DNA of 36,274 nt from Verrucomicrobiota bacterium. Its GTDB lineage: Bacteria; Verrucomicrobiota; Verrucomicrobiia; Opitutales; Puniceicoccaceae. The notes beneath the pieces are model-generated. The model ran no database searches, had not been told where the DNA came from, and worked only from the letters and a program-made list of their open reading frames with translations. The stretch spans positions 1-36,274 of the forward strand of contig JBCDMB010000028.1 in assembly GCA_038744685.1 (NCBI GenBank), read 5' to 3'. Within the stretch, counting starts at the first letter, position 1; the number at the start of each line of letters is the position of its first letter. Below are positions 16,860 to 33,873 of this stretch, piece by piece. A program made the translations under genes and the position numbers.

Positions 16860-18092
16860 TTATTTAGCGAAAGTTTCCATCCAAGTGCATAAGGACTCTC
16901 GCACTTGAGAATTTCGAATTCGAACCCGAACTGAGTCGCAGTTTTCCCGGAATGTACGTCCTTCGAGAACAGTTCGTATCGTCTCCATGAATTTCACGCT
17001 ATTCAGCTGGCTGTAGCGAACCATCTTTCCAACCCCAAGCCGTTCTATCCGGATGCCGTTATCCGGTTGGTCATAAGATCGAGGCACGATAACCTGTGGA
17101 ACTCCTGCCTGAAGAGCGCGGGCAAGAGTTCCGATGCCGCCGTGATGCACCACTACCGAGCAGAGAGGAAAAAGGTCCTCGAATCGAGCCCGATCAATGT
17201 GGAAAACATGGTTGGGGAGATCTATTTCCGGTCGCTTTAAGCCAACCAGAAGACAACGTTGGTCCAGCTCCTTGCAGACCGCTACTGCACGACGATGAAA
17301 GGAATCGGTGTGAATATTGGCAGAGCCATGGGTGAACAGAACGGGCGGCTTTCCATCCTCAAGAAACCGGTTCAGAGATTCGGGGAGCGGTCGTCTCTCC
17401 ACCGTCTCGACAGGGAACCCAAACAACTTTAGCTGAGGGGGCCAATCTACTTCTTTCGGAGCAAACCACTCGGGAAAAAGTGCAGCTACTCCATCACATC
17501 CATTGATGGCTTCAGCATAGAAATCATCTATCGGACGAAGCCCACAGGACCGGCGAAACTCATTTAAACTCTTCTTACCCTCTCCCCAAATGCGCCAATC
17601 AACCAGCTTGTAAAGAAATTGCCTCAACCAGCGCGGACTTCGGCTTAACCATGCCAGCTCAGGGACAAAGACAGGAGTGTTTTCAAGCGAGCGGAAGACC
17701 ACCGGCTGTAGATGAACCGTAACGGACGGTATCTGCAATTTCTCGGCAACGGACCGAGCACTAACCGCTAGAGAGCCCGTGACCATAAGATCAGCACCCT
17801 CAGCGATCTCAAAAGTGGCGGTTCCCAACCGTTCCATGAGTTTCGCTACCTCCCCCATCAAGACCTCAGGACCCCGAAAGCGGTCCCAAAGCAAAGGATT
17901 TGATAGAAGCGAAGCGAACTCTTCCTCCGTTCCGAGAGGGTGCCATTCGAATCCCCGCTCCTCTGCAAGGAACGAATAAAAGGGTGTAAGCAAAAAGACT
18001 GGCTCGTGCCCCTTCCTTGCAAGCCCGTCTGCAATCCAAAAAAGGGGATCGACGTCTCCCTGCGATCCGAAAGGAACGCAGAGTATTTTCAC
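16860..18092 (-). CDS. GT1-family (UGT/MGT-like) glycosyltransferase
   Basis: A 410-residue GT-B glycosyltransferase. The N-terminal domain begins 'ILCVPFGSQGDVDPLFWIADGLARKGHEP', like macrolide and sterol glucosyltransferases. The C-terminal donor site reads 'VVHHGGIGTLARALQAGVPQVIVPRSYDQPDNGIR', with the HGG...G and D/Q residues that bind a UDP- or dTDP-sugar. The acceptor is probably a lipid or small hydrophobic molecule, but cannot be specified. It starts at a GTG overlapping the stop of the upstream lipoprotein gene by 4 bases (GTGA), so the two are translationally coupled. Confidence 0.85.
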   Translation of the reverse strand: MKILCVPFGSQGDVDPLFWIADGLARKGHEPVFLLTPFYSFLAEERGFEWHPLGTEEEFASLLSNPLLWDRFRGPEVLMGEVAKLMERLGTATFEIAEGADLMVTGSLAVSARSVAEKLQIPSVTVHLQPVVFRSLENTPVFVPELAWLSRSPRWLRQFLYKLVDWRIWGEGKKSLNEFRRSCGLRPIDDFYAEAINGCDGVAALFPEWFAPKEVDWPPQLKLFGFPVETVERRPLPESLNRFLEDGKPPVLFTHGSANIHTDSFHRRAVAVCKELDQRCLLVGLKRPEIDLPNHVFHIDRARFEDLFPLCSVVVHHGGIGTLARALQAGVPQVIVPRSYDQPDNGIRIERLGVGKMVRYSQLNSVKFMETIRTVLEGRTFRENCDSVRVRIRNSQVRESLCTWMETFAK

Positions 18093-18304
18093 TCGAACGA
18101 ACCCGAAATCGACTCTTTCATCGCTGCCTCTTCAGACGGGTTTAGCTGACCACCTTCCGCGAAATCGTCCACTGTGTCCTCCTGTATTGCGTCGAGACCA
18201 GAGGAAGTCCGGTCTTCCCTACTCTCATTCAAATTCTTCCGAAACCCCGCGCAACCCGAGAGGAGAGAAAGAGCCAAAGAACAAGCCAAAAGTATGCGAA
18301 CCAT
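18089..18304 (-). CDS. Very small lipoprotein coupled to the glycosyltransferase
   Basis: A 71-residue protein with a good lipoprotein signal ('LLACSLALSLLSGC', lipobox LSGC) followed by a short acidic, probably disordered mature region. The ATG at 18304 has AAAGG seven bases upstream; a TTG two codons earlier would be too close to that site. Its stop overlaps the glycosyltransferase start by 4 bases. No family recognised. It may anchor or regulate the glycosyltransferase, which is inference only. Confidence 0.65.
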   Translation of the reverse strand: MVRILLACSLALSLLSGCAGFRKNLNESREDRTSSGLDAIQEDTVDDFAEGGQLNPSEEAAMKESISGSFE

Positions 18305-18388
18305 CCTCAAACCTTTAATCGACGATCACCCAGCGCTTCAACGGGAAAGAGAAGCGTGGTATTAATTCGCTACTTAAATAGAAAATAC

Positions 18389-18465
18389 TCGGGATTCGAT
18401 ATCGGGATCGAAACCGGGTCCCGAGTGCTTTCGATCGCGATACCGATTTCGATTTCGATTTCGTA
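18389..18465. repeat. Dispersed imperfect-palindrome repeat, copy 2
   Basis: TCGATATCGGGATCGAAA (18396-18413) pairs with TTTCGATCGCGATACCGA (18429-18446) with two mismatches, and is followed by CGATTTCGATTTCGATTTCG. It aligns with the reverse complement of the element at 41-114. The stem has diverged between copies while self-complementarity is kept, which suggests selection for structure. Confidence 0.7.
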
Positions 18466-18584
18466 TAAGGCGCGGTTTAATAACGAAAATCATCATCTGA
18501 ATTTCTCAATGAAGCACCTACCCTCCCCAGCCTCTTCCTGTGGAAGCCTGGCGATTCATTTCAAAAACGACAGCGTGGTGTCAT

Positions 18585-18780
18585 TTTGACCCTAATCCGG
18601 TTAAACTTCCAACGTCGAGGCTTTGCGACTCGGCCAGTGAGGTCCAGCGTTCTGAGGATTGTCGATTTCACGGGCGATAATACCGGGTTGCCTACGAAGG
18701 CTGAATATAGCCACCGAATGTCCTCGGTTTGTCGGGATATACCAAACGGGTTCGTTGCCTTCCTTCCATTCTCTTTTTGA
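18585..18780. other. Gene-free spacer segment, possibly repeat-derived
   Basis: No credible gene. Short reading frames on both strands have no start context or domain. The segment directly abuts the palindromic element at 18781-18860 and its composition differs from flanking coding DNA, so it may belong to the same dispersed unit. Bases 18466-18584 likewise hold nothing I can name. Confidence 0.35.
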
Positions 18781-18860
18781 CCACGGATATCACGGATTAC
18801 GCGGATAGGATTTCTCTTCAGTTTTCTTTTCACATCCGTGCTCATCCGAGTAATCCGTGG
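18781..18860. repeat. CACGGATTA-type palindromic repeat
   Basis: The left arm 18781-18806 (CCACGGATATCACGGATTAC...) and right arm 18834-18860 (...CCGAGTAATCCGTGG) are inverted repeats of each other with a few mismatches, separated by a 27-base T-rich spacer. Short CACGGAT/ATCCGTG units recur within each arm. Elements of this CACGGAT form are dispersed in many bacterial genomes. It is centred about 140 bases upstream of the predicted sigma-54 start site. Confidence 0.7.
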
Positions 18861-18930
18861 TTCAAATTCTTCTTTCTCCCATATCAGGCCAGACGGTCGT
18901 ACCTTCTCTTACCGATAACTTTACGTGGTG

Positions 18931-18947
18931 CTGGCATATCAAATGCT
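18931..18947 (+). promoter_or_regulatory. Putative sigma-54 (RpoN) promoter of the guanidine/urea locus
   Basis: CTGGCATATCAAATGCT matches the -24/-12 pattern TGGCAC-N5-TTGCW with two mismatches and has GG and GC exactly 10 bases apart. The expected transcription start is about 18958, leaving a leader of roughly 48 bases before the ATG at 19006. A near-identical element precedes the gene at 31650-32321. Confidence 0.6.
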
Positions 18948-19005
18948 CATCGCGGGTGACCAAAGAGATCCATCTTTGCCCACAAATCGAAAACACAACC
19001 ACATC

Positions 19006-20016
19006 ATGATCAAGTCAGCCTCCCTTAACTCGCTCTACAAAATGTTCCGCGCAGGTATTTGCGCCTCTTTCCTTGTAGCTGCCAGCTTTCTCACCGCGAA
19101 AGAGCCGCTAAAGATTGGTTATAGTGATTGGCCGGGGTGGGTCGCGTGGCAGATCGGAATTGACAAAGGTTGGTTTGAGGAGGCTGGCGTCGACGTAGAA
19201 TTTCTTTGGATGGATTACGTGGCCTCTATGGATGCCTATGTAGCGGGTAACATTGATGCCGTTTGCATGACCAATGGGGATGCCCTTGTCACGGGAGGCA
19301 CTGGAAAGCCATCCGTCGGTATTATCATCAACGACTACTCAAACGGAAATGACATGATTGTTGCTGCACCGGGTATCGAGACTCTCGAAGACCTGAAAGG
19401 CAAAAAAATTGGAATCGAAGAAGGCTTCGTCGTTCACCTCCTTCTTCTCAAGGGAGCTGAACTCGCCGGGATTGATGCAGCGGAGTTTGAAATCGTTAAT
19501 GTGCCAACCAATGAAACGCCTCAAGTGCTCGCTTCCGGGGCTGTCGATGCCATTGGTGCATGGCAACCGAATTCAGGTCAGGCACTGAAGACTGTTCCTG
19601 GTTCGAGCCCTGTTCTTACCTCTGCAGATGCTCCAGGAATCATTTATGATCTGCTCTTTGTTGATCCAGAAAGCCTGGAGACTCGCCGCGATGATTGGGC
19701 GAAAGTTGTGTCTGTGTGGTATCAAATCGCCGACTACCTGAAGGACGAAGACAACATCGATGAGGCACTCGAGATTCTCTCTAAGCGTGTGCAGCTCACC
19801 CCCGAAGAGTACGAGCCCTTTTTCGAAGGCACCTACATTCTCAGTCTCGATGAAGCCCTTGAGGTTTGGAAAGACGGTGACGGACTTGGTTCGGTCTATG
19901 GGTCCACCGAAATCTCCGACAAATTCAATGTAGAGCAAGGTGTCTATGAGGAACCCCTCGAGACCGACAAATACCTCGACCCGAGCCTTACTCTCGAATA
20001 CGCGGCTTCCAAATAG
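19006..20016 (+). CDS. ABC transporter substrate-binding protein, NitT/TauT type (probable guanidine/guanidino-compound uptake)
   Basis: A 336-residue periplasmic binding protein with an N-terminal signal ('[18 protein letters not shown]'). The mature part begins '[23 protein letters not shown]', characteristic of the NMT1/SsuA/NrtA-like fold, followed by '[15 protein letters not shown]' and '[14 protein letters not shown]'. The ATG at 19006 is preferred to an upstream in-frame GTG at 18925 because that start lies upstream of the predicted promoter and buries the signal peptide. The locus content points to guanidine, urea or a related compound as ligand; related NitT/TauT-type transporters accompany guanidine riboswitch-controlled carboxylase operons in other bacteria. 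Confidence 0.88.
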
Positions 20017-20054
20017 TTAGAAACTCGCTTTTCAAACCTTTGTGTTTGCTTGCT

Positions 20055-20086
20055 GAAGGCGGACCATTCTCAGTTGGTTCGCCTTC
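20055..20086 (+). terminator. Intercistronic hairpin after the binding-protein gene
   Basis: GAAGGCGGACCA (20055-20066) pairs with TGGTTCGCCTTC (20075-20086), 12 base pairs including one G-T, with an 8-base loop and a short GTTTTA tail. The weak tail suggests partial termination or 3'-end protection, which would make the binding protein more abundant than the membrane components. Confidence 0.65.
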
Positions 20087-20142
20087 GTTTTATGCAGAAT
20101 CGAGGACGTCGTACAAGAGAATCCGAGTAACCCAACGGCACC

Positions 20143-21528
20143 ATGAAGAAAAATAGGCCGAAGGTGAAAAAGCACCCATGGTTTGCGGTTCGCAAGGATT
20201 TAGAAGGTAGACGGCGCCTTTTCCTGACCATCTGTTCGTTTCTGTTGCCATTAGCGATCTGGTGTTTTGTCAGCTACACTCCCTTTTTCTGGCACCCTGA
20301 TATCAAGCTTCAGATTTCGGCTGATCGTTCGAACGTCACTACCGTCTATACAGCGGGAAATCACATAACGAGAACGGCAGATGAACCGGGAGGGTTCGAC
20401 TTCAGTGTATTTCAGCAGCAGATCCGGGACGAAAATGCGGCTCTGCGGGAAAAACTCGATGCAGGCGAAGAAGTAAGAGGTTCGCGACGGAACAATATAA
20501 AATTGCTGAGGCACATAGCGCCTGTCGGAGTAGCGAATGGTTGGATCGATCGGGATCAAACGACTGACGATGCGGAGATTTATGCAATCTGGAGGGGCCT
20601 CGCACTCGGAGAGTTGAATCCGAGAAGGGTGCAGATTTCCGATGAAAATCTTGAGGTGATCAAGAGTAACTGGGCAATCCTCGGTAGCCACTCCGAGACT
20701 TTTGATTCCAAGGAAATACCGTCTCAACCATTGCTGAAACTTGTTCCTCAGGGGGTTCCAGCTAACCCGGACTACTTGCCTGCCCCACACGAAGTTGTCT
20801 TGAAAGGGTTTGAGGATTTTACGTTCGTTTCCGAAGGAGATACTCCCTCAATGTTTGAACGTTACCTGCACTCACTGAAGGTCGTCTTTTTAGGGTTTCT
20901 GATGGCCGCTCTGATCGGTGTTCCCCTAGGAGTTCTCTGCGGAACTTTCGATCTCTTTTCAAGACTCTGCGAGCCGTTCGTGGACTTTTTCCGCTACATG
21001 CCGGCACCCGCCTTTAGCACTCTTTTGGTGGTCATTTTTGGAGCCCATGACGCTCCAAAGGTGGCCTTGGTTTTTGTTGGCACCTTCTTTCAGCTCGTGC
21101 TCGTTGTTTCCAACACTACGCGTCAGCTAGATGGCGCCCTTCTCGAAGCCGCGCAGACGCTCGGGGCAAAGAGTCTTACGCTTATCCGAAGAGTAATTAT
21201 TCCCGGCATTACTCCCAACCTTTACAACGACTTGCGCATCTTGCTTGGCTGGGCGTGGACTTGGCTCGTGATTGCAGAATTGATTGGAGTGAAGAGCGGG
21301 TTGACTGAGTTTCTCGAAACCCAGGGGCGCTTTCGAAACTTTGATAGCGTATTCCCGATCATCATCTTAATCGGAGTTACAGGATTCGTGACAGACCAAA
21401 TTCTCGCATCGCTTCGGAAGTATTTCTTCCCTTGGACGCCGGAAGCCGCGGAGAAACGGCACGGGTTCATAGGACGTTTTGTAATTTGGCTCATCAACCG
21501 GAACACTTACAGAAAACCGGCGAGTTAG
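20143..21528 (+). CDS. ABC transporter permease with large N-terminal periplasmic insertion
   Basis: A 461-residue BPD_transp_1 permease. A first membrane helix (about 25-45) is followed by about 190 soluble residues that do not resemble the core permease. The usual core starts near residue 240 ('[23 protein letters not shown]') and includes the EAA loop '[24 protein letters not shown]', which docks on the ATPase, and '[14 protein letters not shown]'. SsuC/TauC-type permeases are about 250-280 residues, so the protein is nearly twice the normal length, with the insertion between TM1 and the 'LPAPHEVV' linker. It lies 126 bases after the binding protein and 11 before the ATPase. Confidence 0.88.
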
Positions 21529-21539
21529 AAGGCAGGAAG

Positions 21540-22439
21540 ATGAGCGAGATTGTTAAACTCCCAAGCTACAAAGATCAGAGCGAATCCGTTCGTGCGCGAT
21601 TCGCTGAGCTCTACCAGCGTCCGATTAAACTCGATGTCCAAAAACTGAGTAAGACCTTCTCCACGCCAAAGGGTGATCTAACGGTATTGCATGATCTCGA
21701 TTTCAATATCCACCGTCGGGAGTTTGTTTCGGTTATCGGACCGTCAGGGTGCGGTAAATCGACTTTGATTCGGGTCCTTGCAGGGCTCGAGACAATAACA
21801 GACGGGGAATTTCTTCTCGATGGCCAAGAGATGATCGGGCCAGGCGCCGACCGCGGCATGGTCTTTCAGGGCTACACGTTGTTTCCTTGGTTGTCCGTCA
21901 AGAAAAACGTCATGTTCGGTCTCGAGGTAAACGGCATGTCGGGACCAACCGTCGAACAAGAGGCTATGCAATGGATCGAAATGGTGGGACTAGCGAATTC
22001 TGCAGATAAGTATCCGAGACAATTATCAGGCGGAATGAAGCAACGGGTCGCAATTGCCCGGGCTCTAGCGAATCAACCTCAGATTCTCTTTATGGACGAA
22101 CCTTTCGGAGCTTTGGATCCTCACACGCGTTGTCAGATGCAGTCCCATCTATTGAAGATCTGGCGAAACGTAGATGTTACCATCATGTTTGTGACACACG
22201 ACTTGGAGGAAGCGATCTACCTCTCCGACCGGATCTTGGTCCTGAAAGCCAATCCGGGCGAGATCGAGGAGTTCATCGAAGTACCAGTGCCGCGTCCACG
22301 CGAGCCGGATTGTTTGTTGAGCCCAGAGTTTTTGGCGACAAAGCAACGCCTTGAGGAGCTCATCCATCCAAAGGCTCATGAACCGGAGGAAGAGCTGCCC
22401 GTTATTCGAATGACTCTCAAGAGCGACGATGTTGAATAG
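21540..22439 (+). CDS. ABC transporter ATP-binding protein, NitT/TauT type
   Basis: A 299-residue ATPase powering the transporter. Walker A is 'GPSGCGKST', the Q-loop is in '[14 protein letters not shown]', the signature is '[15 protein letters not shown]', Walker B is '[12 protein letters not shown]' and the H-loop is in '[11 protein letters not shown]'. It has about 45 N-terminal and 50 C-terminal residues beyond the compact SsuB core. The ATG at 21540 is chosen because AGGAAG lies just upstream; a longer frame from 21432 is inside the permease gene. Two bases separate it from the creatininase-like gene. Confidence 0.93.
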
Positions 22440-22441
22440 GG

Positions 22442-23218
22442 ATGCAGGATGCCACCTACAGTCCGTGGTCGGCTATGACGTGGCCGGAAATCCTCGAACG
22501 AATTGACGGTGGCTGTGATGGGGTAATTCTCCCTCTCGGCGCAACCGAGCAACACGGCCCTCATTTGGGAACCGGCATGGACAGTGTCCTTTCCGAAGAG
22601 GTGTGCCGGGCTGCGGGTAAGGCAACTGGTGTTCCGGTCCTACCGACGTTGCCTTACGGCTGCTCAATTGGCCATTCCCACCGATGGCCGGGGACAATCG
22701 CCCTCAGCCCCACGACAATGATCGCGGTGCTCTGTGATATGGGCGACTGGCTGTATAAATCAGGTATCCGCCGCTGTTTTCTGGTGAATGGTCACGTCGG
22801 TAATCAATCAGCGATTGGATGCGCCTTAGATACCCTGCGCTGTCGATATGACGATATGATGGTTTCAAATATAAACACTGGGAACATAACCCCGGCAATC
22901 GAAGCAACTTTCTCAGCAGACGCAGATGACTGGCACGGAAACGCAGCCGAGACGAGTCTGATGATGGCACTGTCTCCGAAAATGGTCCGAATGAATGAAC
23001 TTACGAGCGCCGACGACCCAGACCGAACGGGCGAATGCGTTTTCTTTCATCCGGTAAATCGCACCAGCACAAACGGAGTAACCGGACGGCCCAGTGAGTC
23101 TTCAGAAATAGCAGGTAAACAGCTTTTTCAAGAGCTGGTTTCCGCACTCAGTAAGCTTGTCGAAAAAGGTCTTAAAGAAAAACCTCCTCTCGATGCCTCC
23201 TACGATGAGCGCGTTTAA
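22442..23218 (+). CDS. Creatininase-superfamily metallohydrolase
   Basis: A 258-residue member of the creatininase/MftE/ArfB superfamily, which hydrolyses cyclic amides and related C-N bonds with a dinuclear metal site. Visible metal-site motifs are '[18 protein letters not shown]' (Glu36, His38, Asp47), 'VNGHVGN' (His118) and 'WHGNAAETS' (His165, Glu170). In true creatininases the residue two after the motif His is Glu (Glu122 in the Pseudomonas enzyme); here it is Gly, as in other superfamily branches. So creatinine may not be the substrate. Its position inside a guanidine/urea operon suggests it releases or opens a guanidino or ureido compound. It has only 2 bases to the ATPase gene and 12 to glnT. 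Confidence 0.85.
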
Positions 23219-23230
23219 CTGAATTTTGAA

Positions 23231-24649
23231 ATGACAGAATTCTACGATAAGTATAAGACCGCCGCTGGAAATCTATACTCCAAGGAAAAGTGGACTGACG
23301 CTCAAATAGCCGCGATTCAGGACGATTTAGAGAAGGCCGGCGTCAAGTATTGCGTCGGTAACTACGTCGACATCCACGGAGTTCCTAAGGGCAAGGTTGT
23401 GCCTCTTAGTCATTTCTCTGAATTCGCTCGCGGATCAGAGCTCTACACAGGTTATGCACTCGACGGTCTCGGCCAGAGTCCCAATGACGATGAAATCGCC
23501 TCCAACCCGGATTTGGGCCTGATCATACCGCTCCCATGGAACCCCGAGGTTGCCTGGATTCCGGCGGACAACACATTGCATGGTGAACCTTACGAAGTGA
23601 ACACCCGTGTCTTGCTGCAAAAGGTGCTCAAAGAGGCTGAGGCTATGGGTTTCGGGATGAATCTCGGTATAGAGTGCGAGGTCTTCGTCCTTCACCACAA
23701 CGATGATGGATCGCTCGAAATTCCAAATCGCGACGACGATCTGGAGAAGAGCTGCTACGACTTCAAGCGGTTTATGGATCGCTACGGTTGGCTGGATAAG
23801 ATGGCCACAACCATCGATAGCCTTGGATGGGAACTCTATTCGTTCGATCACGAAGACGCGAACTCTCAGTTCGAGTTTGATTTTAAATATTCCGACGTTC
23901 TCACCATGTGTGATCGCTTCGTTTTCTTCCGTTACATGGCGAAGCACTACGCCTCTGAAGAAGGACTCATCGCGACTTTCATGCCTAAGCCATTTGCAGA
24001 TAAGACGGGCTGCGGCGCGCATTTCAACATGTCTCTTTTCGACAAAGACACGGGGGAGAACCTCTTTGCGTGCAACAGAGCTGACGACCCGCGGGCGCTC
24101 GGGCTTAGTGAGCTTGGTTATCAGTTTTGCGCCGGCATCCTCAAGCACGGTCCAGCCCTTTGTGCAACATTCGCGCCAACGGTAAATAGCTACAAACGCC
24201 TCGTCAGGCGTGGCCTCATGAGCTACTACTCATGGGCCCCTGTGTTCAACTCCTACGGTAGTAATAATCGGACGAACTCTCTCCGCATTCCAATGGCTGG
24301 GGGCCGCATCGAGTCGCGGAACGCCGATGCATCCTGCAACCCCTATCTCGCTGCCGCACTTGCACTCGCCGCCGGACTCGAAGGAATCAGAGAGAAACTC
24401 GATCCAGGCGATCCTCAGGAAGATAATCTCTATGAACTCACTCCCGATCAACTCTCTGGCCGTGGAATCTCAGAACTCCCTAGTTCTTTGGATGAAGCTG
24501 TCAAAGCGTTCTCGGCTGACTCTTTCGTTGAGAAGGTCCTGGGTGATGAGTTGCGGAATGAATTCATCACCTACAAGTCCGAAGAATGGCGCCAATACCA
24601 TCAACGGATTAGCCAATGGGAGGTTGATCAATACGCTCGGCTTTTCTAA
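23231..24649 (+). CDS. glnT: Glutamine synthetase, type III (GlnT)-like
   Basis: A 472-residue glutamine synthetase homologue, ATP-dependent amidation of glutamate with ammonia. The beta-grasp N domain includes '[15 protein letters not shown]'; the catalytic domain shows 'GIECEVFVL' (metal-binding Glu pair), '[13 protein letters not shown]', '[21 protein letters not shown]', '[10 protein letters not shown]' (ATP site) and '[24 protein letters not shown]'. These match the glnT/TIGR03105 type found near urea-carboxylase and methylamine loci. A Tyr equivalent to the GlnA adenylylation position remains in 'NLYELTPDQ', but whether it is modified is unknown. Some relatives ligate amines other than ammonia to glutamate. 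It probably captures the ammonia released downstream. Confidence 0.9.
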
Positions 24650-24678
24650 AGCTAGTTTTTTGAACTAGTATTCCGTCT

Positions 24679-25431
24679 ATGAGTGAAAATACACCTGCTC
24701 CGCCTCTTGGCTCGAGCGAGCAAATCTACGAAACCACACTCCGTGGTGCGACCATGTGGTCAAAGGTCATCGGACGTGGCAAGACGCTTCGAATGACCGA
24801 CCTGGAGGGTAAGGCGAATGTCGGAATGCTTCTCTACAACGCGTTCGAAAAGCACGAGCGCTACAACATGCCGGACACCCTGAAGGGCCAGCACATCTTC
24901 TACCTTTCAGCACCCTACTGTCTGCATTCGGACATGGGGCGGTTATTTTGCTCGATCACAGGCGATACTCGTGGATGGCATGATGCGGTCTGCGGATGCT
25001 CCGACGCCGCGTCGGTAGAAGAGAAGTATGGCACTAAGACCTTTCAGGAGGCGCGAAATAGTTTCTACCGGGATGCGCAGAACTCTTTTCTAATCGAGTT
25101 GGCGAAATGGGGCTTGGGCAAACGGGATCTGATGCCGAACATCAATTGGTTCAGCAAAGTGGTGACTGATGACAACGGGAAATTGAGTTTTGTCGAGGGA
25201 GAGTCCACTCCCGGCGATACGGTAGACCTTCGCTTCGAAATGGACACTCTCGTCGTCCTCAATACCTGCCAACACCCGTTCGATCCAAATCCAACTTACG
25301 ACCCAGGCAAAGTTAAGCTTGAGGTATTCAAAAGCACTCCGGCAGCCGAGAACGATCCGTGCCTGAACTCACGACCCGAAAACCAGCGTGCGTTCAACAA
25401 CACAGAGGAATACAACGCCCTTCGATTTTAA
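24679..25431 (+). CDS. Carboxyguanidine deiminase subunit (DUF1989, urea carboxylase-associated protein 2 type)
   Basis: A 250-residue DUF1989 protein of the kind long annotated as urea carboxylase-associated protein and since shown in other bacteria to form, with its paralogue, the carboxyguanidine deiminase CgdAB, which converts carboxyguanidine to allophanate plus ammonia. It shares with its neighbour the '[16 protein letters not shown]' and '[15 protein letters not shown]' segments. The putative metal cluster reads Arg98-His101-Cys105/Cys107, whereas the neighbour has Cys95-His98-Cys105. The subunits are therefore not equivalent. Which one is CgdA or CgdB cannot be settled by eye. 18 bases separate them. 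Confidence 0.87.
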
Positions 25432-25449
25432 CTTCCCAACCCTTTTCCC

Positions 25450-26085
25450 ATGTTGACCGAAAGCACACTCAAACCCGAAGACGCGGTGTATCGCAAAACC
25501 GTTTTGGCAGGCGACTATTGGATCCACAAAATCAAGAAAGGTCAGACGTTCCGTATTGTTGACCTGGAAGGTAATCAAGCGGCCGACACCTTGTTCTATG
25601 ATGCTGAAGATCCGGAAAATCGCTACAGTGCGTCCGATACCGTCCGCCGACAAGGTTCCCTCTACCTGACAACGGGTTCGGAGCTGATCTCGTCAGAAGG
25701 AGACCTTCTGATGAGAATCACTGCCGATACCTGCGGTCGCCATGACACCCTTGGCGGAGCGTGTTCACGTGAGAGCAATACAATGAGGTATTCTCCCAAA
25801 ACGGAGTTCATGCACGCCTGCCGCGACAGCTTCATCCGGGGCTTGCAGGATTGGGGGCCGGATCTGACAACCCGTGATCTTCCTTGCAACATCAACTTCT
25901 TCATGAACGTGCCAGTCACGCCGGAAGGAAAACTCACGTTCGAAGACGGGATCTCTTCCGCTGGTCTCTATGTAGAAATGATCGCCGAGCGAAATGTGAT
26001 GTGTCTCATCTCCAACTGCCCCCAATTGAATAATCCTTGCAACGCGTACAACCCTACTCCTATTGAGACGATCATCTGGGATTAG
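25450..26085 (+). CDS. Carboxyguanidine deiminase subunit (DUF1989, urea carboxylase-associated protein 1 type)
   Basis: A 211-residue DUF1989 protein, paralogous to the preceding gene. It contains '[17 protein letters not shown]' and the conserved cluster '[16 protein letters not shown]' (Cys95, His98, Cys105), likely the metal-binding catalytic site. Cytoplasmic, no signal peptide. It is expected to pair with the 250-residue protein to deiminate carboxyguanidine, the product of the carboxylase encoded next. A 103-base gap with no clear promoter or terminator separates it from the carboxylase gene. Confidence 0.88.
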
Positions 26086-26188
26086 AAAGTACCTCGTGCC
26101 AAAAACGAGTCTTAAGCATCTGTGAAGATCCACGTTTTCCTCAGTTGGACAGCCCATCTCGTTCTCTGTCTCTAAATTTCTCGCAATC

Positions 26189-29100
26189 GTGTTTTCCAAA
26201 GTTCTCATAGCAAACCGCGGTGAGATCGCCTGCCGGATAATTCGCAGTCTGGATCAACTGGGCATTGAGTCCGTGGCCGTGTATTCCGACGCCGATCGCG
26301 ATTCACCTCACGTATCGATGGCGACCGAAAGTTATCGCATCGGACCAGCTGCAGTCAGCGAGAGCTATCTCCGGGCAGAGACTATTCTTGAAGTCGCCTT
26401 AGACTCCGATTCCCAAGCCATTCATCCTGGGTATGGCTTGCTCAGCGAGAACGCCGATTTCGCAGCAGCGTGCGAAACGGCTGGTATCACTTTCATCGGG
26501 CCGACCCCTGAAAGTATGCTCGCATTCGGGCTCAAGCATCGAGCCCGGACACTAGCATCGGAAAACCGTGTGCCTTTGGTCCCAGGAACAGACCTTTTGG
26601 CAGACGTAGATGAAGCTCAGGCGGCCGCAGCCGAAATCGGTTATCCCGTCATGCTCAAAAGCACCGCTGGGGGTGGAGGCATCGGAATGCAGATTTGCCA
26701 CTCCGTCTCAGAACTTTTGGACGCTTACGAGCGTGTCGAACGACTCAGTCAAAGCCATTTCGGGCAAGGTGGGATTTTCCTTGAGAAGTATGTCGAACAC
26801 GCTCGGCACCTCGAGGTTCAGATCTTTGGCGACGGTGAAGGTCATGTGCTCTCCCTCGGTGTGCGGGATTGCTCAGCCCAAAGACGCAATCAGAAGGTGA
26901 TTGAAGAAACGCCTCCCGCAAATGTCTCCAAAGAAGTAGTGACCGGGCTTCAAGAAGCCGCCTTGCGGCTTTGTGAATCGGTAAAATATCGATCCGCTGG
27001 CACCGTTGAGTTTATTTACGACAACGACACAGGAGAGTATTACTTCCTTGAGGTAAACACTCGCCTACAAGTGGAGCATGGCGTGACGGAGCTGGTGACC
27101 AATGTCGACCTCGTCGGTTGGATGGTCCGGCTGGCAGCAGGTAGTCTAACCCTCTCATCTTGGCCAAAGATCGTTTCCAAGCGCGGACACGCGATACAAG
27201 CGAGGCTTTATGCAGAGAATCCGCATAAGGATTTTCAACCGTCGAGCGGCCTTTTGACCCAAGTCTGTTTTCCAGAGGGTGTCCGCTGTGACCACTGGGT
27301 AAGCTCCGGGACTGAGGTGACCCCTCACTACGATCCGCTTCTGGCGAAGCTACAGGTCTATGCCGAATCACGCGATCAAGCTGCCGAAGCGATGGCAAGT
27401 GCTCTGGAAGCGACCAGGCTCGATGGCATCGAAACCAACCTTGAATACCTGAGTTCCGTCGTAGCCTCCCAACCATTTCGGTCGGGAAATATCGTGACCA
27501 AGAGCCTGTCGCTGCACGATTATCAGCCAAGCACTTTTGAAGTGCTTCGTTCCGGAACGATGACGACTGTGCAGGATTTTCCCGGTCGAACCGGTTATTG
27601 GGAGGTCGGCGTTCCGCCGTCTGGCCCGGTGGACTCTCTCGCTTTTCGACTGGGCAATCGGATTCTCGCCAATCCGGAGAATGCTGCAGGCCTCGAGATT
27701 GTCATGACCGGGCCAAAGCTGGAATTCCACACCAATGTCGTCGCAATCCTCACGGGAGCGGAGATGAGCGTCACCCTCGATGGAAAACCCGTTGAATTCT
27801 ACCGCCCCTTCCCCATTAGATCAGGCTCCGCGCTCGACATCGGAAAACTGAAGGGACCAGGCGTCACAAGCTATCTCTTGATTCAAGGAGGAATAGATGT
27901 GCCACTCTATCTGGGTAGCCGCTCAACCTTTCCTCTGGGTCAGTTTGGAGGCCATGGAGGTCGAGCACTACGGGTAGGAGATGTCCTTCCAATTCAAAGA
28001 AGCACTTCTCTTTCTCACAATGATTCAAAGGCTTATCCGGCCGTTCAGGACCTGGAATACCTTCCGAAAGACCAACAGCCAAAGCTGAGTCACGCGTGGG
28101 ATATAGCGGTCCTCTACGGGCCTCATGGAGCACCCGATTTCTTCAAATCCTCCGATATCGAAATGTTTTTCGAGGCGAAATGGGAAGTGCACTACAACTC
28201 GGCGCCGACCGGTGTTCGCCTCATCGGACCAAAGCCATCGTGGGCTCGCCCAGATGGCGGAGAGGCAGGGCTACACCCGTCCAATATCCACGACAACGCG
28301 TATGCGGTGGGAGCTATCGACTTCACGGGAGACATGCCTGTGATTTTAGGACCCGACGGGCCAAGCCTCGGCGGCTTTGTTTGCCCGGTCACAATCATTC
28401 AGAGCGATCTTTGGAAAATCGGTCAACTGAAGCCGGGTGACACGGTTTGCTTCCGTTGTGTCTCGCGTGACGTTGCCTCAAATCTCCTCCGAAAACACGA
28501 AGAAAGCATCGCTACGCTGCGAACTGACTTCTCAGTGCCCGCTGAACCGAGAATTCCTGCCGATGACGAGATGATTCTCGTCGATGAGGGTCAGGACGAA
28601 AATCGGCTAGTGATTCGTCAAGCTGGCGACGCTTACGTGCTTGCGGAGATCGGGCCTATGATTCTCGACTTCAAAATACGCCTTCACATCCATGCACTCT
28701 ACCAGGCACTGAAGAAGCAAGCGTTTGGACCTGTTATAGACATCAATCCCGCTATTCGGTCATTACAGGTTCATTTTGATCCGAAAGAACTCCGTGCGGA
28801 AGACGTAGCAGCGTGGATTAATCAAACCAATAGTCAGCTTCCGCCACTCAAAAATATCACCGTTCCCTCCCGCATTGTTCATTTGCCACTTTCATGGGAC
28901 GACCCCAGCACCCGGCTTGCTACGGAAAAATACATGCAGTCCGTTCGCCCGGATGCCCCCTGGTGTCCGGACAACATTGAGTTCATTCGTCGGATCAACG
29001 GCCTTAAGACCCGCGATGATGTTTACGATATCGTATTCAACGCCCGCTATGTCGTTTTAGGCCTTGGAGATGTCTATCTGGGTGCCCCCGTCGCCACTCC

Positions 29101-29827
29101 GCTTGACCCTCGCCATAGACTGGTGACCACGAAGTATAACCCAGCCCGTACATGGACTCCGGAGAACGCCGTCGGCATCGGTGGAGCCTACCTTTGTATT
29201 TATGGAATGGAAGGTCCCGGTGGATATCAATTTGTGGGCCGCACGATCCAAATGTGGAATCGCTACAACCAGACCAAATCCTTCACGGAAGGTAAGCCCT
29301 GGCTTCTTCGGTATTTCGACCAGATTCACTATTATCCAGTTGAGGCAGAAGAACTTGAAGTCCTCCGGCACGATTTCCTGCAGGGTCGTTTCAATCCAAG
29401 AATTGATGAATCCACATTCAGCCTTGGTGACTACGAGAAATTCCTCACTGAAAATTCGGAATCGATTCAAGCTTTCAAGTCAAAGCAGCAATCCTCGTTC
29501 AACGCCGAACGACAGCGATGGGAGGAAGCAGGACTGGCAACATTCGTAGAGGAAGACAGTGTAGCGGTTGATGAAGATTCAGAGGCTTTACCCGAGGGCG
29601 TTGAACCGGTTGAGAGTCCAGTCGCTGGAAGCGTTTGGAAAATACTCCAGAAGGAGGAAGGCAGTGCCATTGGAGCGGGCGATTCACTGGTGATCCTCGA
29701 ATCAATGAAGATGGAGATCAAGGTCACTGCGCCCGTTTCCGGCACGTTGTTTCGCTGTCTGATCAAGGAAGGCCAGGGAATTTCGCCTGGGCAGGCACTA
29801 TTTGGAATCAAGGAACACTCATTTTGA
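26189..29827 (+). CDS. Biotin-dependent urea/guanidine carboxylase
   Basis: A 1212-residue multidomain carboxylase starting at GTG ([16 protein letters not shown]). Domains: biotin carboxylase (1-445) with ATP-grasp 'AGGGGIGMQ', '[16 protein letters not shown]' and '[16 protein letters not shown]'; carboxyltransferase part of AHS2/KipA type (about 447-765, '[19 protein letters not shown]'); AHS1/KipI type (about 795-1060, '[19 protein letters not shown]'); biotinyl domain (about 1145-1210) with Lys1174 in 'ESMKMEIKV'. It uses ATP and bicarbonate to carboxylate urea to allophanate or guanidine to carboxyguanidine. The adjacent DUF1989 pair makes guanidine the likelier substrate; the residue that discriminates the two was not assigned. 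Confidence 0.93.
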
Positions 29828-29840
29828 CTGTAAGACCCTG

Positions 29841-31568
29841 ATGATGGAAATGGATCTATCGATCAAGAGCCTAAAGACTCAGTATGCGGAGGGCTCAATA
29901 ACCCCTCGGAGTTTAGTTGAGAAGCTACGCAGGAGAATCGTTGAAGTAGAGAATCCCAATGTGTGGATCCATCTCCTCGATGGCGAAGAATTGGAGCCCT
30001 ATCTCGCTCAGTTGGACGGAAAGGATCCTGCAAGTTTGTCCCTGTTTGGGATCCCATTTGCGATCAAGGATAACATCGACCTTGCAGGCGTTCCGACTAC
30101 CGCCGGCTGCCCAGCCTACAGCTACACGCCAACAGTCTCCGGCACAGTAGTGGAAAATCTCATCAAAGCGGGTGCGATTCCTATGGGGAAAACGAATCTC
30201 GATCAATTTGCGACTGGTCTTGTCGGAGTGCGTTCACCCTATGGTACACCGCGCAATCCCTACGCTCCAAAACGGGTGCCCGGTGGCTCCAGCTGTGGTT
30301 CGGCGGTCGCCCTGTCCGAAGGTCTGGTTTCGTTCTCGCTCGGAACGGATACGGCGGGCTCTGGCCGCGTGCCAGCGGCTTTCAACAAGCTTTGGGGAAT
30401 CAAACCGAGTCGAGGTCGGCTCAGTAACAGAGGTCTTGTTCCGGCATGCCGCACTCTTGATTGCATTTCAATCTTTGCGCTTAGCGGAGAGGACGGGCGT
30501 GTCGTTCTAGACACTGCCGAAAGTTACGACCCTGCTGATTCCTATTCACAGCCAATCTCGGACCTCTCTTTGCCAGCATCGAAGACAATCGGTATCCCAA
30601 AGCAGGATCAGCTCATGTTTTTTGGTGATGCGGACTATAATCGGGCCTGGGAGACCAGTGTCGAACAGCTGAAAGAGAAGGGCTGGCAAATCGTTGAGGT
30701 GAACTTTCAACCATTTCTTGACGCAGCCCGACTTCTTTACGAGGGACCCTGGGTTTCCGAACGCACTGCGGCGCTAAAGAAATTCCTCGAGAGCAATCCA
30801 GACGACTTTTTCCCCGCTACGAAAAGCATTATCAGTGGAGGAATGGAGAATACGGCGGTTGAAGCCTTTGATTCGATCTACAAACTGGCTGATCTCAGGC
30901 GCCAGACGGAAGCAGTATGGGAAGGCCTTACTGCGATTGTCACTCCAACTGCAGGAGGTTTTCCCTCTCTCGAAGACCTGAAGATCGAGCCGATAGGACC
31001 AAATTCCAAGCTTGGATACTATACTAACTTTATGAATCTTCTCGATCTCTGCGCGGTCGCCGTGCCCAGCTCCGACAGTCCAGTCGGATTGCCTTTCGGC
31101 GTTACCTGGATGGCTCCGCGGGATACCGACAAGGTCCTTATTGATCTCGCAACAAACGGACCACAAGAAAGTGAAGCAAGAGAACGGATTTCCATTCTTC
31201 TATTTGGAGCCCATATGAGCGGACTGCCGTTCAACACACACGTTCAACAACTCGGTGCGGCATATGTCGGAAAAATTCATACCGCGGAGAAATATAGAAT
31301 GAGTTATCTGCCTAAACCCGAACCCCATCGTCCGGGAATTTTCCGCGTCGACGACGGTGGCGTATCAATAACCGGCGAGGAATGGTCGTTCCCTTTCGAG
31401 TCCCTCGGTAAATTTCTCGCAACGATTCACCAACCTCTCGGACTTGGGGAGATCGAGCTCAAAGACGGCCGCAAGGTGCACGGCTTTCTTTGCGAAGCCT
31501 CGATCGCATCTAGCGAGCGAGACATTTCGGAATTCGGTGGATGGCGAGAATTTATTAGAGCACTCTGA
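29841..31568 (+). CDS. atzF: Allophanate hydrolase
   Basis: A 575-residue amidase-signature enzyme that hydrolyses allophanate to two ammonia and two CO2. The Lys-Ser-Ser triad is Lys76 ('AIKDNID'), Ser150 ('PGGSSCGSA') and Ser174 ('[11 protein letters not shown]'), with the same spacing as in AtzF. A complete C-terminal domain (about 440-575, '[10 protein letters not shown]...' to 'GGWREF') is present, as in the bifunctional forms that act on the N-carboxy intermediate. ATG at 29841 (or the next codon) is chosen; a longer frame overlaps the carboxylase. It follows that gene by 13 bases and is the last gene of the locus. Confidence 0.94.
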
Positions 31569-31590
31569 TCGAAGTCTTACTTTGGAATCA

Positions 31591-31621
31591 AAAAAAAGCA
31601 CCGCCCTTCCGGACGGTGCTT
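31591..31621 (-). terminator. Terminator of the TorF-like porin gene, between convergent genes
   Basis: AAGCACCG (31596-31603) pairs with CGGTGCTT (31614-31621), plus two inner C-G pairs. Read on the minus strand the hairpin is followed by eight T residues, a classic intrinsic terminator. On the plus strand the tail is only TCAAATTT, so it would be a weak terminator for the allophanate hydrolase operon. Confidence 0.88.
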
Positions 31622-31649
31622 CAAATTTGGAAACTTTCTGATTTTCAGA

Positions 31650-32321
31650 TCAGAATCCGATACCCCAAGAGACGAAGAAGAGAGGATCGTCGGCGGCAAC
31701 GTCTGATTCATCAGCGAGAGTGACCGAGAAAGTGAAATCCCCAAAGTCTGTGCTCTTGCCAAGGTCCAGCTGGCCCCAAACGTAGTCGCCGTCACTGGAG
31801 AAATCAAAGATGTAGTATCCCACAGTAAGGCCTACCGAAAAGTTCTCGGCGAGATCAAAGCCACCCGATACGAAGAATGCGACATCTCCGTCGGAAAAGT
31901 AGCCATCATCAATTTCGCTCACGAACGTGTAAGCGACCCCAGCACCAAAGGCGTCGTAAGCGAGATTCAAATACACTTCTGCGAAGTTTGCATCCTCATC
32001 TGCTGCCGGGTAGAGATACCCGATGACGCCAACGTCATACCCAAGGTCTCCAGCTTCACCTGCGAAGCCACCGTAAACGTCGAGTTCGGTCCCTCCAGCA
32101 AAGTTAACGTTGGACACCCAAGTTCCGACGTAGATGCCGCTCTCGTCAGCAAAGTCGAGACCTCCTTGAACGGCCGCGTCGTTTCCAGTTTGGGAAACAC
32201 CCCGGAAAACGTAGTTGCTGGTTACGCCGATGTTGCCGTCGATCGGTAATGAATCCTGAGCAAAGGCGGAACCGGTCGCAAGTATTGCAGACGCGGACAG
32301 GATTGTAGTCAGTTTTTTCAT
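31650..32321 (-). CDS. TorF/TIGR02001 (Gcw_chp)-type outer-membrane protein
   Basis: A 223-residue protein with a Sec signal ('LTTILSASAILATGSAFAQ'). The mature start 'GNIGVTSNYVFRGVSQTGNDAAVQGGLDF' is the hallmark of the TIGR02001/Gcw_chp family, recently called TorF putative porins. The rest is a small barrel of alternating strands, rich in Asp/Gly, ending 'FVSWGIGF' with a terminal Phe. Family members often lie beside glnK-amtB nitrogen genes. Here it converges with the guanidine/urea locus and has a sigma-54-like promoter 65 bases upstream, so an outer-membrane channel for small nitrogen compounds is a reasonable hypothesis. Confidence 0.85.
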   Translation of the reverse strand: MKKLTTILSASAILATGSAFAQDSLPIDGNIGVTSNYVFRGVSQTGNDAAVQGGLDFADESGIYVGTWVSNVNFAGGTELDVYGGFAGEAGDLGYDVGVIGYLYPAADEDANFAEVYLNLAYDAFGAGVAYTFVSEIDDGYFSDGDVAFFVSGGFDLAENFSVGLTVGYYIFDFSSDGDYVWGQLDLGKSTDFGDFTFSVTLADESDVAADDPLFFVSWGIGF

Positions 32322-32975: not shown

Positions 32976-33043
32976 CCAAAACCTTGGTATCCGTCCTGCA
33001 GAACGATGACTGTATTCTATTAACCACTAACCAAGGAAACCAA

Positions 33044-33454
33044 ATGACATTATTCAAAACTGATCTCTACTCGAATGACCCATTCGCGGGAATGAACTCT
33101 CTATTCGAGCACTTTAACCGTAGCTTCGGAGGGAGCTTTGGGGTTTCGTCCAGAGACCGGCAGATCCCTGTAAACCTATACTCCGCCGATGACGCTTATA
33201 ACGTCCGGGCCGAGGTGCCGGGGTTCTCCAAGGAAGAGGTAACTGTCGAGCTGGAAAACGCGGTCCTCGAAATCCGAGCACAAAAGAAGAGTTCGGAAGA
33301 CGGATCGACCAATAGTGTTCAACTCGTTCGAAAGATCACCATCGGAGACGATGTGGATCCGCAAAAGGTAACCGCTAAGCTGGAAAACGGAGTTCTCTCG
33401 GTTCATCTGCCGAAGAACGAAGCGACGAAACCGAAGTCGATCGAGGTGAGCTAA
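33044..33454 (+). CDS. Hsp20/alpha-crystallin small heat-shock protein, copy 1
   Basis: A 136-residue small heat-shock chaperone. An aromatic-rich N-terminal arm ('FEHFNRSFGGSFG') precedes the alpha-crystallin domain (about 40-130) with 'IPVNLYSADDAYNVRAEVPGFSKEEVTVELENAVLEI' split across its strands, and the family signature 'AKLENGVLSVHLPK'. The C terminus lacks an obvious IxI motif beyond 'KSIEV'. The ATG at 33044 follows AAGGAAAC; a longer frame from 32984 adds 20 unlikely residues. It holds unfolded proteins for refolding. A second Hsp20 gene follows after 38 bases. Confidence 0.92.
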   Translation: MTLFKTDLYSNDPFAGMNSLFEHFNRSFGGSFGVSSRDRQIPVNLYSADDAYNVRAEVPGFSKEEVTVELENAVLEIRAQKKSSEDGSTNSVQLVRKITIGDDVDPQKVTAKLENGVLSVHLPKNEATKPKSIEVS

Positions 33455-33492
33455 GACAACATTTAAAAACAAAACGAAAGGAAACCATTCAA

Positions 33493-33873
33493 ATGAGTAA
33501 CTGCATGACTAAAACTGATAGCGAAGTCACCCAAGCCGCACGGCGAGAATCTTTCCGCCGACCCCACTACGAGGTCGTTCCTGGAAAAGAGAAGTATCTT
33601 CTAAAGGTTCACTTGCCGGGCGTCGCGAAAGACCGAGCAGAAATCACGATTGAGAAGGACCAACTTCTAGTTGTTGGGCGGAGAAAAACACAGGCTCCAG
33701 AAGGCTTTAAGCCTGTTTATGAGGAGTTGGCGCGAGACGACTATCGTTTACAGCTTCAGCTAAACGTGCAGGTGGATCAGGACCGGGTGGAAGCTCAGAC
33801 AGAGAATGGAGTTCTGACGGTCACTCTACCGCTCGCTGCGGCCAGCAAGGCCAAAACAATCTCGGTCGAATAG
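33493..33873 (+). CDS. Hsp20/alpha-crystallin small heat-shock protein, copy 2
   Basis: A 126-residue small heat-shock protein. The N-terminal arm is short and not aromatic-rich. The alpha-crystallin domain (about 25-122) contains 'YLLKVHLPGVAKDRAEITIEKDQLLVVGRR' and 'AQTENGVLTVTLPLA', with 'KTISV' at the end. GAAAGGAAACC precedes the ATG. It diverges markedly from copy 1, so the two probably co-assemble or have different clients instead of being a recent duplication. It ends the operon at a strong terminator. Confidence 0.92.
   Translation: MSNCMTKTDSEVTQAARRESFRRPHYEVVPGKEKYLLKVHLPGVAKDRAEITIEKDQLLVVGRRKTQAPEGFKPVYEELARDDYRLQLQLNVQVDQDRVEAQTENGVLTVTLPLAAASKAKTISVE

Follow-up and report, generated by a model that had tools for sequence, protein, structure and literature searches.

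A predicted guanidine-assimilation operon of Verrucomicrobiota with a conserved creatininase-fold protein and glutamine synthetase-like ligase

The closest described counterpart of the locus analyzed here is the Gca/CgdAB/AtzF operon of Pseudomonadota, with which it shares an importer, two DUF1989 subunits, a carboxylase with an Asp signature, and an allophanate hydrolase, in a similar order (PMC11410670, PMC12186494). Guanidine carboxylases differ from urea carboxylases by Asp rather than Asn at the equivalent of K. lactis position 1330, together with Asp at position 1584, and the DUF1989 pair is described in the guanidine literature as carboxyguanidine deiminase (PMC11410670, PMC12186494). 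A guanidine-carboxylase operon with an additional front-end pair is likewise known from Vreelandella boliviensis, where MgdH/MgdL, a 2-oxoglutarate dioxygenase and a lyase, convert a substituted guanidine (methylguanidine) to guanidine (PMC12508155).

We analyzed a stretch of 36,274 nucleotides from a Verrucomicrobiota bacterium (contig JBCDMB010000028.1; hereafter, the window). Its proposed front-end pair is of another kind than that of Vreelandella, consisting of a creatininase-fold hydrolase (CREAT) and a glutamine synthetase (GS)-like ligase (GLNT, or GlnT). Guanidine carboxylase examples from Azospirillum and Caballeronia, unlike the window, are not accompanied by these two genes.

Gene content and core pathway

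Nine co-directional open reading frames occupy positions 19006 to 31568 (Table 1). Pfam and NCBIfam profile searches bore out the gene families that a first-pass annotation, made from the sequence alone, had assigned to them. The intergenic gaps, computed with the ATPase start shifted to the ATG at 21540, are in gene order 126, 11, 2, 12, 29, 18, 103, and -26 bases, so that the earlier description of gaps of mostly 2 to 30 bases is fair, with two longer ones (126 and 103). The analysis supports the proposed shared operon.

Table 1. Genes of the operon in the window, with the profile evidence for each
Product	Position	Strand	Evidence or remark
NMT1-type substrate-binding protein (SBP), ABC importer	19006..20016	+	PF09084/PF13379
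ABC permease, BPD_transp_1	20143..21528	+	PF00528 at residues 259-423 of 461
ABC importer ATPase	21540..22439	+	PF00005; start is the ATG of MSEIVKL
CREAT, creatininase-fold metal-dependent amidohydrolase, operon-specific clade	22442..23218	+	PF02633, E=8e-68
GLNT, GS-like ligase, probably gamma-glutamyl-amine (GmaS/GoaS-type)	23231..24649	+	TIGR03105, 615 bits
UAAP1, carboxyguanidine deiminase subunit (DUF1989)	24679..25431	+	TIGR03425, 331 bits (cut-off 206)
UAAP2, carboxyguanidine deiminase subunit (DUF1989)	25450..26085	+	TIGR03424, 313 bits (cut-off 285)
Guanidine carboxylase, biotin-dependent, annotated as urea carboxylase	26189..29827	+	TIGR02712, 1793 bits (cut-off 1304)
Allophanate hydrolase	29802..31568	+	PF01425 and PF21986; TIGR02713, 671 bits (cut-off 511)

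The SBP is the first gene of the operon in relatives as well, and its top NCBIfam model, TIGR03427 ("putative urea ABC transporter SBP"), was matched below the cut-off (138 versus 334 bits). The permease carries approximately 200 additional N-terminal residues ahead of the transport domain; several relatives match the protein over nearly its full length, which suggests that this region is conserved. The true start of the allophanate hydrolase is probably one of the ATGs near 29838. Downstream, at 32984 to 33873, two neighboring genes resemble by eye Hsp20-type small heat shock proteins.

When aligned to the K. lactis enzyme (3va7), the window carboxylase reads GAI-D-FTGD at position 1330, where K. 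lactis itself reads GAI-N-FTGD, and LGLG-D-V places an Asp at the equivalent of position 1584. Asp occupies the first motif in all 31 readable operon carboxylases, including that of the window, and Asn in none. Both DUF1989 subunits and the allophanate hydrolase score above their NCBIfam cut-offs; with these present alongside the carboxylase, the known guanidine route is complete. Searches of the window's genome retrieved neither a urease alpha gene nor an arginase-family gene, and a PDB search found no solved relative of UAAP1. Taken together, these signatures indicate that the core of the locus is very probably a guanidine-assimilation operon, and the full guanidine-to-ammonia route that had been proposed for it stands, as a guanidine rather than a urea pathway, on the carboxylase Asp signatures, the DUF1989 pair, the allophanate hydrolase, and the importer.

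The GS-like ligase and the creatininase-fold protein

GLNT scores above the 470-bit cut-off of TIGR03105, which NCBIfam names "type III glutamate--ammonia ligase." This score cannot separate a GS from an amine ligase because the model probably also takes in amine ligases. In RhGmaS, Ala stands in place of the GS ammonium-site Asp50' and Trp in place of the flap Glu (PMC7948447). GS-like ligases without these two residues use organic amines, with ammonium use not reported (PMC11335346). With the Asp50' place assigned by alignment through RhGmaS, the window GLNT has Thr there and Trp at the place of the flap Glu. It thus lacks both residues of an ammonia-assimilating GS and displays the pattern of GmaS and GoaS, as judged against 7cql (RhGmaS) and 9qur (glutamate-methylamine ligase), the latter being its top PDB match and the former the next. 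The flap Trp is common to the GLNT proteins of operon relatives, and the likeness to GmaS/GoaS extends to the HEDAN.QFE core (PMC7948447, PMC11335346). Unlike GmaS and GoaS, GLNT belongs to a subfamily of its own, with at most ∼42% identity to plasmid GlnTs among the best listed matches, and it is partnered by CREAT instead of a glutamine-amidotransferase-like hydrolase or N-methylglutamate synthase.

The same genome encodes a separate 340-residue GSII-like protein (L148), in which the FDGSS motif is intact. The loss of the ammonium site in GLNT and the presence of this second enzyme make it unlikely that GlnT channels freed ammonia into glutamine, as the first-pass annotation had suggested. 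On the strength of its active-site residues, we consider GLNT a likely amine ligase and not a GS.

CREAT belongs to the same fold family as P. putida creatininase (1q3k/1j2t) and has the same metal ligands, with E36, H38, D47, H118, and E170 retained in the alignment, the first four being the E, H, D, and H of the creatininase superfamily. Although creatininase is its best NCBIfam match, CREAT reached only 122 bits against the creatininase equivalog TIGR04448 (cut-off 235); against the MftE model, it scored 109 bits (cut-off 172). The creatinine-binding residues of P. putida creatininase, Glu122 and Trp154, are missing from CREAT, which has Gly and Asn at these places. The operon CREATs form one clade separate from genome paralogues (support 100/99). 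An AlphaFold model built from a two-row alignment had a mean pLDDT of 44 and was set aside. CREAT is best described as a putative amidohydrolase of the creatininase fold.

Conservation of the pair, alternative cassettes, and a NikR-like gene

A search for this gene order across Verrucomicrobiota, proposed as a check by the first-pass annotation, was made in a sample of 388 genomes, with placement in the phylum resting on kinship to L001. The order SBP-permease-ATPase-CREAT-GLNT-UAAP1-UAAP2-carboxylase(-allophanate hydrolase) recurs in relatives. L001, a Puniceicoccaceae metagenome bin, has all nine genes (64 to 82% identity), and the arrangement also occurs in members of several families within the same order and class. 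Recurrence in relatives from many families argues against chance. UAAP1 was found in 44 of the 388 genomes, 14 of which have CREAT and a GS-like gene linked to it, usually between importer and deiminase. The insertion of CREAT and GlnT, previously noted as an unusual addition, is therefore real and conserved, with a single CREAT clade, and is no local accident. In the remaining 30 genomes, the linked pair is missing; absent from about two thirds of the guanidine operons of the phylum, the module is not needed for guanidine itself.

The operon GLNT subfamily is sharply bounded, with identities of 67 to 79% followed by a drop to ≤51% across the 388 genomes. All 13 genomes with a member of this subfamily also have UAAP1 (hypergeometric P = 9e-14, a value that ignores shared ancestry). 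In L069 and L071, CREAT is accompanied by a different GS-like subfamily; the partner is replaced while CREAT stays paired, an indication that it is the combination of functions that is maintained. CREAT and the GS-like gene are in swapped order in L064 and L067, and in L067 the pair lies on the opposite strand, a few kilobases from the deiminase genes. L062 has an additional GLNT-subfamily copy after the importer, without CREAT or UAAP1. Beyond Verrucomicrobiota, our view comprises plasmid records and one strict scan of genome contigs, which gave two loci. The plasmid collections contained distant relatives only (best listed identities of ∼36% for CREAT and ∼42% for GLNT), and in none of five plasmid loci inspected were relatives of the two genes side by side.

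The slot between importer and deiminase contains, depending on the relative, nothing extra, CREAT-GLNT, a Rieske-oxygenase set, or both. The Rieske set consists of a Rieske oxygenase and an FGE-like protein, often with an AP-endonuclease-like TIM-barrel protein, and includes a GFA-like protein in L064 and L141. It is present in five relatives, in L063, L064, L069, and L071 together with CREAT and in L141 without it. The nearest NCBIfam model for the Rieske proteins is glycine betaine monooxygenase, and carnitine monooxygenase is among their best PDB matches, which suggests oxidative N-dealkylation. By analogy with MgdH/MgdL, the slot contents would be consistent with a modular front end deriving guanidine from its substituted forms. 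Within the window's own genus, two genomes have a Rieske-FGE-TIM-barrel set at a separate locus (L169:7486-10247 and L170:8970-12170), adjoining ABC transporter genes of its own.

At the gathering threshold, neither the window nor any of nine relatives gave a guanidine riboswitch, a difference from the Pseudomonadota operon, and a permissive scan of positions 18000 to 31700 gave none either. Promoter and terminator scans gave sites no more numerous than in shuffled sequence. Of the 17 genomes that carry the pair, 16 have a single NikR_C gene, in or adjoining the operon, and a NikR-like gene occurs in 37 of the 44 UAAP1 genomes (e.g., L033:7741-8184 and L001:5525-5977). The seven that lack it are the window's own genome, in which no remnant was found in the window, and six with a second UAAP2-like gene. 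The latter DUF1989 gene, without a NikR-like gene, was observed in L144, L145, L154, L155, L157, and L158, from another branch of the phylum. In none of 41 aligned NikR-like proteins is the set of four nickel ligands complete, and every one of them has lost Cys95. The protein may have been co-opted as a sensor of guanidine or of some other compound in the pathway; we found no publication describing a NikR-like regulator of guanidine operons. At 18775 to 18866 of the window, upstream of the operon and where L001 carries its NikR-like gene, lies a palindromic repeat with ten full or partial matches across the draft genome.

Competing readings and a proposed route

Several readings of the locus were weighed. 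The NCBIfam names (urea carboxylase, urea amidolyase associated proteins) would have the operon serve urea, which is highly improbable given that 31/31 operon carboxylases have Asp, not Asn, at the specificity position and that the DUF1989 pair is described as carboxyguanidine deiminase (PMC11410670, PMC12186494). We give equally little credence to CREAT being a true creatininase in an operon that uses creatinine or creatine: membership in PF02633 and the best NCBIfam match speak for it, but the score lies under the equivalog cut-off (122 versus 235 bits) and the Trp154 and Glu122 positions are not conserved.

Less remote, yet still quite unlikely, is that GlnT is a true GS that captures pathway ammonia and that the creatininase-like enzyme cuts down a larger guanidino compound after its import. 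The TIGR03105 equivalog score (615 bits, above 470) and the location of the gene in an ammonia-producing operon agree with this, whereas the ammonium-site Asp and the flap Glu have given way to Thr and Trp (PMC7948447), the nearest solved structure is a glutamate-methylamine ligase, the genome has a separate GSII, and 30/44 guanidine operons of the sample do without CREAT-GLNT. A GMAS-like GLNT, in a slot that accepts different cassettes, could instead mean that the pair is only co-regulated with guanidine use and handles another amine as a nitrogen source, for example methylamine that is stored or detoxified in the form of gamma-glutamylmethylamide. We consider this unlikely, as the pair is tightly linked to the guanidine importer and the N-methylglutamate synthase subunit GlxC, whose gene follows GlnT in the inspected Pseudomonadota examples, is absent from 17/18 genomes tested, including the window's. 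Methylamine use via N-methylglutamate synthase was rejected on this absence of GlxC.

We lean slightly toward a combined reading, namely, a guanidine operon with an exchangeable front end in which CREAT and a gamma-glutamyl-amine ligase would act on a substituted guanidine or on the amine derived from it. The ABC importer would bring a guanidino compound into the cell. GLNT would couple glutamate not to ammonia but to another amine, and CREAT would hydrolyze an amide, the two together processing a substituted guanidine, or the amine freed from one, so that guanidine enters the core. There, the biotin-dependent carboxylase would convert guanidine to carboxyguanidine at the expense of ATP, the two DUF1989 proteins would deiminate carboxyguanidine to allophanate, and allophanate hydrolase would set the remaining nitrogen free as ammonia. 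The guanidine-type core, the loss of the GLNT ammonium site, the CREAT metal site, and the conserved linkage are read from sequence; what we infer is a serial action of module and core, the sequence of the two module steps, and the substrate.

That CREAT-GLNT is a front end helping to release or process a substituted guanidine falls, in our judgment, just short of an even chance. In its favor, aniline and naphthylamine degradation likewise combines a GS-like amine ligase with an amide hydrolase and a Rieske oxygenase (PMC11335346). A ligase beside a hydrolase would, however, be futile without an intervening reaction, and in the window no oxygenase supplies one, which counts against the combined reading. 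The substrate of CREAT may also not be a gamma-glutamyl amide; trimming of a larger imported guanidino compound is plausible and is strengthened by the Rieske-oxygenase cassettes at the same slot in relatives. More speculatively, Verrucomicrobiota may possess a hitherto undescribed gamma-glutamylation route in which the ligase and the creatininase-fold hydrolase, sometimes with a Rieske oxygenase, free guanidine from substituted guanidines under the control of a NikR-family sensor of guanidine or a pathway compound that lacks the nickel site; we regard this as doubtful.

That bacteria can feed on free guanidine is now accepted, while the larger compounds that feed it are largely open, and the locus hints at a so far undescribed first step on such a larger guanidine compound. 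The NikR-like gene without nickel ligands, traveling with the operons, is a candidate protein-based sensor for operons without a riboswitch. The conserved two-enzyme module in guanidine operons, together with the alternative cassettes, provides concrete enzymes that may open new guanidine sources.
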